Part shown: positions 6,815-32,255 of the stretch, one piece after another
How the letters are laid out: each line of letters begins with the position of its first letter
Numbering within the stretch: the first letter of the stretch is position 1
Source of the DNA: an uncultured Cellvibrionales bacterium
GTDB lineage: Bacteria; Pseudomonadota; Gammaproteobacteria; Pseudomonadales; Cellvibrionaceae
Reading direction: 5' to 3'
Length of the DNA stretch: 32,255 bases
NCBI GenBank assembly: GCA_913050115.1
Contig: CAJWZU010000032.1
Coordinates: 1-32,255 of the forward strand
Made by a program: the position numbers and the translations under genes
Notes under the pieces: model-generated
Databases searched by the model: none
The model's input: only the letters and a program-made list of their open reading frames with translations
Told to the model about the DNA's origin: nothing

Positions 6815-7669
6815 CTATAATTGCTCCACTCGGTAGCCGCTTTTTTGTAGTCGTTCAATAATGCCATCGGGACCGACCAGATGCAGGGTGCCGACTAAAA
6901 TAAATTCGGTTGCTGGCGTTTTAAACATGGCTTCAATTTGCGGTAGCCAGCTGTTATTACGCGATACCAATAGGTTTTGATACAGTTCTGGATAATCACT
7001 GCTTATCGGCATAATGGCCGTCTCCAACAGTTTATTGCTGTCGCCACTGCGCCAAGCTGATTTCAGTGTTGCCATCATTTTAGCCAAGCTGTCCATATCA
7101 TCTAAGGTGCTCAAGATTAGCTGATCTTCTTGACCCTCGCCCATAGACGTTAAAAACTGCAATTGCTGCTCGGTGGTTTCAAGTTTCAGTAAGGTTTTGC
7201 CGTCTTTAGTACCCTGCTTATAAAAGTGCTCATCGACCCCTGCGCTGGAAATTCCCATACGCTGTAGTTCTATCATCGTTAAAGTGATCGTTAGTAGAGC
7301 CGGTTTAAATTTGAGGAAGTTATCCAGCGGTAAATCGCGCGCTTGGCAATAAGTATTTAAGCGTTGGTAGGTATCCTCTTCAAGTACCGATTTTAAATTT
7401 TTACCGTCGGGGTAGGTAAGGGCTGTCAGCATCTGCAGCTGAAACTCGGGCGAGGACAAAGCAGACAGGTCTGTTTCAAATACCAACGTTTGCGCCTGTT
7501 GGTAGGACGTTGAAAAACTGTCGGGTAGGGGGTAATCCGACGGTGCTAATATATGTAAGGTACCGCCAATAAACAGGCTTTGCTCGCCTTTACTGACCTT
7601 CCATACCGAGGTGTCGGCAAGTACCAGCGTTTGCCAAAGTAGCAGTGTTAGAGCTAAACATAAGCGCAT
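6815..7669 (-). CDS. TraB/GumN family protein, secreted
   Basis: 284 residues with a typical Sec signal peptide (MRLCLALTLLLWQTLVLA), so the mature protein is periplasmic or surface-associated. The two family-defining GTLH motifs are present: FIGGTLHIL near residue 35 and FILVGTLHLVG near residue 260, with LVFETDLS between. The TraB/GumN (Tiki-like) fold contains metal-dependent proteases in animals, but the bacterial proteins remain functionally obscure. The protein is full length. It lies 58 bp upstream of the Gfo/Idh gene on the same strand and may be cotranscribed with it. Confidence 0.9.
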   Translation of the reverse strand: MRLCLALTLLLWQTLVLADTSVWKVSKGEQSLFIGGTLHILAPSDYPLPDSFSTSYQQAQTLVFETDLSALSSPEFQLQMLTALTYPDGKNLKSVLEEDTYQRLNTYCQARDLPLDNFLKFKPALLTITLTMIELQRMGISSAGVDEHFYKQGTKDGKTLLKLETTEQQLQFLTSMGEGQEDQLILSTLDDMDSLAKMMATLKSAWRSGDSNKLLETAIMPISSDYPELYQNLLVSRNNSWLPQIEAMFKTPATEFILVGTLHLVGPDGIIERLQKSGYRVEQL

Positions 7670-7728
7670 AAAGAGTCCATTCCTGAATAGAGCATTTGAG
7701 TATTATTCTAGTCGAAAAACAGTATTCT

Positions 7729-7906
7729 GTTATCGCCGGCACGGCTTAAATCGAAAGCCGCTGGCAATATGATCATTCACCATGCCATGGTTGCTGGTAC
7801 ATAAAGCCGTTGCCGCTGTTATCGCTGACACGGTTTGAATCGAAAGCGGCTGGCAGCATGTTCATTCACCATGCCATAGTTGCTGGTGCATAAAACCGGT
7901 GCCGCT
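7729..7906 (-). repeat. Two degenerate tandem copies (89 bp each) of the tag 3' end
   Basis: Copy A (7729-7817) and copy B (7818-7906) have the same length and continue in register into copy C (7907 to about 7995), which is the genuine tag C-terminus. All three begin GTTATCGC on the plus strand. Read on the minus strand, each outer copy still encodes a tag-like tail and stop: MVNEHAASRFRFKPCQR (B) and MVNDHIASGFRFKPCRR (A), against MVNDHVVSCFRFKQCQR in tag. The outer copies have lost the zinc-ligand cysteine (Arg and Gly in its place), and B has 4 extra bases ahead of MVN, which breaks the frame. They look like relics of tandem duplication. Confidence 0.9.
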
Positions 7907-7907
7907 G

Positions 7908-8480
7908 TTATCGCTGACACTGTTTAAATCGAAAGCAGCTTACAACATGGTCATTAACCATACCCGTGGCCTGCATGAAGGCATAGCAGATTGTGCTGCC
8001 AACAAAGTTGAAGCCCTTTATCTTTAGCGCCTTACTCATGGCATCGGATTCGGGAGTGGTGGCGGGTATATCACTTATTTTCTTGAACTGATTAATGCGT
8101 GGCTGGCCGCCAACGAAATTCCATATAAATTCAACGAAGCTTTCGCCGCTTTTCTGCATAGCCACAAATGCGCGGGCATTTTTAATGGCGCTGTTCACTT
8201 TAAGGTTATTGCGAACAATATTAGGGTTTAGCAGTAGTTCGGCAATTTTACCCCGATCATAGGCAGCAATTTTAACGGCATCAAAGTTGTCAAAGGCTTG
8301 GCGATAGCCCTCGCGTTTTTTTAAAATAGTAATCCACGACAGCCCTGCCTGTGCCCCTTCAAGCAGTAAAAATTCGAACAGCTGTTGTTCGTCATACAGT
8401 GGCAGGCCCCACTCGGTATCGTGATATTGCTGATAAATGTCACTATCGCCGCACCATTGGCATCGGCTAACCGTGCTCAT
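7908..8480 (-). CDS. tag: DNA-3-methyladenine glycosylase I
   Basis: Removes 3-methyladenine from alkylated DNA as the first step of base excision repair. The 190-residue length is normal. The structural zinc site known from E. coli Tag (Cys4, His17, His175, Cys179) is conserved with a constant +3 offset: Cys7 in RCQWC, His20 in YHDTEWG, and His178 and Cys182 in VNDHVVSC. EGAQAGLSWITILKKRE is the family core motif. The stop codon lies one base inside the third unit of an 89-bp tandem repeat, so the last 25 or so codons are the parent of the two decayed copies downstream. The gene is divergent from pip. Confidence 0.96.
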   Translation of the reverse strand: MSTVSRCQWCGDSDIYQQYHDTEWGLPLYDEQQLFEFLLLEGAQAGLSWITILKKREGYRQAFDNFDAVKIAAYDRGKIAELLLNPNIVRNNLKVNSAIKNARAFVAMQKSGESFVEFIWNFVGGQPRINQFKKISDIPATTPESDAMSKALKIKGFNFVGSTICYAFMQATGMVNDHVVSCFRFKQCQR

Positions 8481-8648: not shown

Positions 8649-8688
8649 AACACATTCTACTGACAGCATAGTGTCAGTAGAATGTGTT
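8649..8688. repeat. Perfect 17-bp inverted repeat, 6-nt spacer
   Basis: AACACATTCTACTGACA (8649-8665) and TGTCAGTAGAATGTGTT (8672-8688) pair perfectly around GCATAG. No T tract follows on either strand, so it is not an ordinary terminator. It lies between the divergent tag and pip genes, 70 bp before the pip start codon. It could be a 5' leader hairpin of the pip transcript, a large operator, or a mobile palindromic element. Confidence 0.9.
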
Positions 8689-12486: not shown

Positions 12487-12918
12487 TTAGTAAATCTCGG
12501 AAGGGTCTTTGATAACTTTGTCGACAGTCTGCCATTCGCCATCTTTCAGTACGCGATAAAAGCAGGACTCGCGGCCGGTGTGGCAGGCCATGCCGCCTAT
12601 TTGCTCGACTTGTAATACCAGTACGTCGGCGTCGCAGTCTAGGCGGATTTCGTGCAGCTTTTGCACATGGCCAGAGCTCTCGCCCTTGCGCCACAATTTG
12701 CCGCGCGAGCGCGAAAAGTAGACTGCGCGATCTTCAGCCACAGTTAGCTGCAGTGACTCGCGATTCATCCAAGCCATCATTAGGATACGACCACTTTTAT
12801 GGTCTTGAGCGATGGCTGCTACTAAGCCGTCATCGGTCCACTTCACCTGCTCGATAAACTTCTCATTTAAAGTTTGATCAATAGGTTGAGCCTTGGTTTG
12901 CAGTACGGTTTGATTCAT
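12487..12918 (-). CDS. hisI: Phosphoribosyl-AMP cyclohydrolase
   Basis: The third step of histidine synthesis, opening the adenine ring of PR-AMP. 143 residues from the ATG at 12918; a GTG at 12927 is the alternative. Conserved stretches are [36 protein letters not shown] and the zinc-binding DCDAD and [11 protein letters not shown] motifs. It sits between ubiB and hisE, an arrangement known from Pseudomonas. The 15 or so residues before FIEQVKW are a variable leader. Confidence 0.96.
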
Positions 12919-12982
12919 AACAATCACGATATCGGACTTAAAAGTTGGGTTGAGAGTTTAATTTTACTTCTTTTGTGGCGCA

Positions 12983-32161: not shown

Positions 32162-32255
32162 TTATTTGTTGACGACATTTTCTAAATTTTCAGTATGCTT
32201 ACCCTGCTTACCCTGCTTACCCTGCTTACCCTGCTTACCCTGCTTACCCTGCTTA
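32162..32255 (-). CDS. Possible 3' end of a gene entering from the right edge (Lys-Gln-Gly repeats)
   Basis: Read on the minus strand from the right edge, the frame is open for 30 complete codons: repeated Lys-Gln-Gly triplets encoded by the 9-bp repeat, then KHTENLENVVNK and a TAA at 32162-32164. Non-repetitive codons after the repeat make a real C-terminus conceivable. The opposite strand is also open from ATG 32195 (Leu-Thr-Leu repeats), so the coding strand is uncertain and the gene is truncated by the window. Confidence 0.25.
   Translation of the reverse strand, partial: KQGKQGKQGKQGKQGKQGKHTENLENVVNK
32196..32255. repeat. 9-bp tandem repeat (TGCTTACCC), at least 6.6 perfect copies, cut by window end
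   Basis: The unit TGCTTACCC repeats without error from 32196 to the last base, so the true length is unknown. As the unit is a multiple of three, copy-number change keeps any reading frame open: Lys-Gln-Gly on the minus strand, Leu-Thr-Leu on the plus strand. Confidence 0.97.

Follow-up and report, generated by a model that had tools for sequence, protein, structure and literature searches.

The last part of tag, the gene for 3-methyladenine DNA glycosylase I, occurs here as three head-to-tail units of 89 bp, and the same genome carries a set of similar arrays, most of them at gene ends. The tag array is best explained as the product of an old tandem duplication across the 3' end of the gene, a reading to which we assign a probability of about 75%. 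The array is ordinary in kind, and by itself it is a textbook relic. The part worth specialist attention is the genome-wide set rather than the tag array alone.

The source genome assembly comprises 2.72 Mb in 100 contigs and is 97.85% complete. The following features lie around the array in the window, which is the whole stretch of 32,255 nucleotides that was analysed.

6815..7669, minus strand: gene for a TraB/PrgY/GumN-family protein (Pfam TraB_PrgY_gumN, E 2.5e-70)
7727..7815, minus strand: unit U1, the outermost, with a tail copy at 7727-7783 (encoding MVNDHIASGFRFKPCRR and a stop) and a gene-ward spacer at 7784-7815
7816..7904, minus strand: unit U2, with a tail copy at 7816-7872 (encoding MVNEHAASRFRFKPCQR and a stop) and a gene-ward spacer of frameshifted tag codons at 7873-7904
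7905..7993, minus strand: unit U3, the last part of tag itself with its stop and 3 nt more; its 57-nt tail part is 7905-7961
7908..8480, minus strand: tag, an intact open reading frame of 190 aa
8759..9730, plus strand: alpha/beta-hydrolase-like gene, an open reading frame and the divergent neighbour of tag

The tag product contains an Adenine_glyco domain (Pfam, E 7e-80), and the solved structures closest to it are those of TAG proteins, among them 2ofi, 2ofk and 1lmz. The next gene downstream is that of the TraB/PrgY/GumN-family protein, separated from the array by 57 bp. The hydrolase-like gene we take, from its look alone, to encode a proline iminopeptidase. Between it and tag, positions 8649-8688 form an inverted repeat, perfect over 17 nt, that encloses a 6-nt loop.

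The register of the array was set by two repeat finders, one of which, Tandem Repeats Finder, reports positions 7727-7961 with a period of 89, 2.6 copies, 86% matches, no indels and a score of 344. Together with an alignment of the units, they bear out the triplication of the tag end in 89-bp steps that an earlier note had described; its unit starts at 7729, 7818 and 7907 give the same register displaced by 2 bp. Also as that note had it, only U3 is part of tag, and U2 and U1 are outer copies downstream. Because 89 is not a multiple of three and tag stops at its own TAA (7908-7910), translation does not read through into the outer copies.

The tail of 57 nt, stop codon included, is 82-86% identical between units (tag and U2, 49/57; tag and U1, 47/57; U1 and U2, 49/57). 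When the tag tail is compared with its own downstream 1 kb, the score is 69, and 50 shuffles give no more than 29, which leaves a negligible probability of coincidence. The gene-ward 32 nt are identical between U1 and U2 at 28 of 32 positions. The gap-free 89-bp register thus holds for U1 against U2, and against tag for its last 57 nt, whereas the adjoining 32 nt align to tag only with indels (net 4 nt).

The outer copies have decayed. The tag tail reads MVNDHVVSCFRFKQCQR before its stop, and the outer tails likewise end in an in-frame stop; as had been noticed, neither retains the zinc-ligand cysteine. The codon at that position is TGC (Cys) in tag, CGC (Arg) in U2 and GGC (Gly) in U1. This Cys, which we take to be one of the zinc ligands in keeping with the alignment to solved TAG proteins, sits four residues after a conserved His, and both residues are present in 111 of 111 tag proteins, this one included. 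A frameshift and the loss of the Cys, altered differently in each copy, are marks of relaxed constraint. The differences between tag and the two copies at first, second and third codon positions (1, 3, 4 and 2, 3, 5) show no clear bias. Derivation from tag, the frameshift and the missing Cys all support the duplication relic that was one of the two readings proposed in the earlier note. They do not support its suggestion that the copies serve tag as spare C-termini for swapping the enzyme's tail, since both lack the Cys.

The gene-ward part of the outer units aligns, by way of indels, to the tag codons for ICYAFMQATG. Against this tag's own sequence the similarity is not significant (p 0.04 for U1, 0.15 for U2), nor is the resemblance of this part to the flanks of tag, which 20/60 and 23/60 shuffles equal. 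Its origin becomes apparent when other tag genes are used. Of the 8979 32-mers drawn from the rest of the window, only 2 (U1) and 24 (U2) reach as high a mean score when set against the corresponding region in 95 other tags, and against 96 tags, with this one included, the score is reached by 0/1000 (U1) and 1/1000 (U2) shuffles. The outer units therefore look tag-derived from end to end, with the gene-ward third frameshifted. Their own tag is no closer to this part than others are, as 52 (U1) and 58 (U2) of the 95 tags score higher. Either the gene-ward part has drifted far, or the outer copies would stem from another tag allele that arrived by transfer.

Outside this locus the array has no counterpart in the sequences compared. 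Within the source genome, the region has no match apart from itself and the tag tail. Among 96 other relatives the sole match is the tag gene of one of them (G085), and among 143 other genomes of the family, a set that overlaps the first, it is a stretch of 25 bp inside the tag of another (G012). Comparing the locus and counting units in relatives, as had been proposed, gives no tail copy downstream of any of 108 other tags, none of which comes from the same genus; the best score is 25, against 69 here. That score occurs at two loci (L080 and L095), where shuffles reach 24. The comparison uses the downstream 1 kb, or less where the sequence is shorter, and applies to 108 of 110 other loci: two (L066 and L111) have too little downstream sequence and were left out, and the result for one (L085) is doubtful because its reading frame extends past the tag end.

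Recent relocation of tag was considered and rejected, as the hydrolase gene lies near tag in 11 of 29 relatives. A homologue of that gene lies close to tag in 13 of 110 loci overall, and in two genomes (G004 and G019) tag, the hydrolase-like reading frame, dtd and hemH all fall within 12 kb. Its retention near tag in the relatives indicates that the tag locus itself was not recently inserted. The GumN gene adjoins tag in none of the 110 other loci within the flanks available, and in G004 it lies about 3 kb from tag.

Scans of the region for regulatory signals gave results close to chance, with 4 promoters found where 2.6 are expected and 2 terminators where 1.5 are expected. The window has no Rfam match that would point to an RNA element. 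Folding of the intergenic strand is only marginally better than that of shuffled sequences (z -1.73, 10/200 shuffles as good).

The tandem duplication that we infer would have begun with slippage or unequal crossing over that copied, head to tail, some 85-89 bp between a point within the ICYAFMQATG codons and 3 nt past the stop. A second head-to-tail duplication would have supplied the third unit. Such events would have been tolerated, since a complete gene is still present after a tandem duplication across its end. The outer copies would then have drifted, acquiring the frameshifting indel and losing the zinc Cys, and the gene tail and the copies probably traded sequence by recombination from time to time. 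Occasional exchange of this kind would keep the last 57 nt similar while the gene-ward part drifts.

Some signs of exchange are found in tag itself. Between tag and U2 there are 14 differences in 29 columns, followed by 8 in 57 (nominal p 0.009, among about 30 pairs compared), and between tag and U1 the patchiness is not significant (p 0.17). The earlier proposal that the array is a substrate for recombination is accordingly plausible, favoured by the uneven divergence from U2 and not by that from U1. A crossover downstream of the Cys codon could exchange the last 8 residues of the enzyme.

The array at tag is one of 18 in a sample of 1,192,255 bases, 44% of the genome, that consists of 58 stretches of 20 kb and the window. 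All have a period of at least 50 and a score of at least 120 in Tandem Repeats Finder. Three lie inside open reading frames and 15, tag included, outside them. The arrays other than that of tag are as follows, named by stretch and position.

L171:3564-3899, L164:17120-17242 and L168:11572-11750: inside reading frames, periods 57, 63 and 78
L175:8200-8674: radC array
L152:5096-5429 and L187:18399-18785: arrays at SLT (lytic transglycosylase) genes
L152:6560-6833: purK array
L161:12959-13286: array with its start in the 3' part of a tRNA-Met gene (12903-12979), in which the final 21 nt of that gene recur together with a terminator-like stretch
L158:19238-19473, L167:18925-19155, L168:4521-4722, L169:7133-7399, L169:10361-10886, L174:2647-3038, L183:10260-10465, L217:1388-1536 and L220:9567-9933: further arrays outside reading frames

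The 14 outside reading frames in this list have periods of 51-170 and 2.0-3.6 copies, and most are at a gene end. Counting tag, seven of the 15 hold a stop codon, four hold a start codon (as judged from the longest reading frame), one begins in tRNA-Met and three are intergenic, such that 12 straddle an end of a gene. Pfam assignments for ten of the genes concerned are SLT transglycosylase (two), PurK, DUF2780, TerB, YidD, RadC, RapZ, RNase HII and FAD-binding oxidoreductase. The period is divisible by three in all three arrays inside reading frames, as selection for the reading frame would leave it, compared with 4 of the 15 outside. The set thus shows which tandem duplications persist when genes are densely packed: those that cross gene boundaries and, within genes, those with a period that is a multiple of three.

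Twelve relatives, 11 of the same family and one of the order, yield 7 arrays in 1.2 Mb, one of them in a reading frame and three at a single locus. The excess here is modest (one-sided p 0.021 for 18 versus 7 arrays, 0.038 for 15 versus 6, and 0.009 for 15 versus 4 loci), and the comparison is rough because the relatives were sampled thinly, at 80-200 kb each, and are mostly complete chromosomes. Loss of mismatch repair was rejected as the cause of the many arrays, given that a MutS family match is present; MutS is the one component that this covers.

When the arrays are laid out in rows of one period, they share the form flank - T - S - T - S - T - flank, where T is a gene end or start and S is the stretch between copies. 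In 7 of 13 arrays tested, the first S is a continuation of the flanking host sequence, a fit that none of 60 shuffles equals, and this is what tandem duplication predicts. The fit is not significant in the tag, radC, L152:5096 and L167 arrays.

Several arrays carry more than a single simple duplication would produce. In radC and both lytic transglycosylase arrays, the outermost copy ends differently and in frame (in radC, R-G-L-L-stop rather than C-G-L-L-stop, with other codons), so that two alleles have met in one array. The radC gene and its next copy are identical over 105 nt and differ at 6 of the following 30 positions (nominal p 0.002, among about 30 pairs); this patchiness and that of tag are of the kind that exchange would leave. 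In purK, patchiness is significant between the two outer copies only. That seen in L158, L168, both L169 arrays, L174 and L183 was not counted, as their ungapped rows show register shifts or lost homology.

In the SLT array at L152:5096-5429, most differences between the gene tail and the two middle copies fall at third codon positions (2, 0, 8 and 2, 1, 7 at the three positions), and the gene copy is a mosaic, the first part resembling the outermost copy and the last part the middle copies. These copies look as though they once served as working gene ends. From such observations one might imagine that the lineage keeps dozens of arrays of spare gene ends that recombine with intact genes, and that the genes of housekeeping enzymes have their heads and tails rewritten again and again, in part with alleles of other strains, but we regard this generalization as unlikely.

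A rival reading, in which the downstream copies are a store of alternative ends for exchange into the gene by recombination in the manner of silent cassettes, is rather improbable. The third-position bias and mosaic gene copy at L152:5096 speak for it, as does the patchy divergence in radC and tag. At tag, however, both spare tails lack the invariant Cys, and the codon-position counts show no clear bias there or in radC (2, 2, 2 and 2, 3, 4). Moreover, these are housekeeping genes with no known antigenic or toxic variation, and the arrays also involve gene starts and a tRNA.

Still less probable is that the arrays are scars left by an element that inserts itself at the ends of genes, where it would supply a tail of its own and displace the original one downstream. 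The 3' end of a tRNA gene is a classic integration site, and one array starts in that of tRNA-Met; in the radC and both SLT arrays the outermost tail is a different in-frame allele followed by unique flank, as such an element would leave it. Against this, only 32 nt separate the tag tail copies, with no foreign sequence or integrase found in them. Four arrays are at gene starts, and S is not foreign in the 7 of 13 arrays where it continues host flanks. The outer units match none of 50,697 phage and 72,556 plasmid records, and a phage or plasmid origin of the tag array was rejected on this account.

A dispersed intergenic repeat of the REP, MITE or MIRU-like kind that happens to lie behind tag, an alternative the earlier note had raised and one that a short, intergenic, tandem array might recall, has almost no probability left and was rejected, because the array occupies a single place in the genome, its unit is tag sequence itself, Rfam gives no match in the window, the matches in relatives (including that in G012) are their own tag genes rather than the same units at unrelated loci, and the other arrays seen repeat their own neighbouring genes with no common unit.

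Tandem duplication across gene ends has close parallels. Bacterial chromosomes contain close direct repeats and tandem duplications of parts of genes, and like the arrays here these are decaying head-to-tail copies of short chromosomal segments among which concerted exchange is possible. What differs is their occurrence as a set in one genome, with 12 of 15 arrays outside reading frames straddling a gene end. Bacterial VNTR or minisatellite loci, including the mycobacterial MIRU, have units of about 50-170 bp in 2-4 mostly intergenic copies. The arrays here are similar in unit size, copy number and mostly intergenic location, but they have no unit in common among the loci seen, and each displayed array repeats its adjacent gene. 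Rhs/CDI toxin and pilin loci carry silent C-terminal cassettes and displaced tips, which resemble the present arrays in that spare gene ends lie downstream of an intact gene. Unlike those systems, the spare tails of tag have lost an invariant zinc ligand, and tag has no sign of diversifying selection.

Intergenic TAACTGA tandem repeats, some of which overlap the stop codon of the gene before them, are described for Beggiatoaceae and cyanobacteria in PMC4679880. Those repeats are of 7 nt with one fixed sequence, whereas the ones here are of 51-170 bp and specific to each locus. In the literature searched, no paper was recognised that deals with comparable arrays of gene ends. Given sister strains or long reads, the arrays would be a natural setting in which to follow gene conversion between an intact gene and its decayed copies.

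Arrays of much shorter period also occur. Those of 5-12 bp number 12 here and 8 in equal samples from relatives, and are not special to this genome. The window ends, at positions 32196-32255 where its contig ends, in a perfect 9-bp array (TGCTTACCC, 6.7 copies), and another contig starts with a perfect 8-bp array (L159:1-63, 7.9 copies). Since such arrays reach the contig ends, the assembly probably broke within them.
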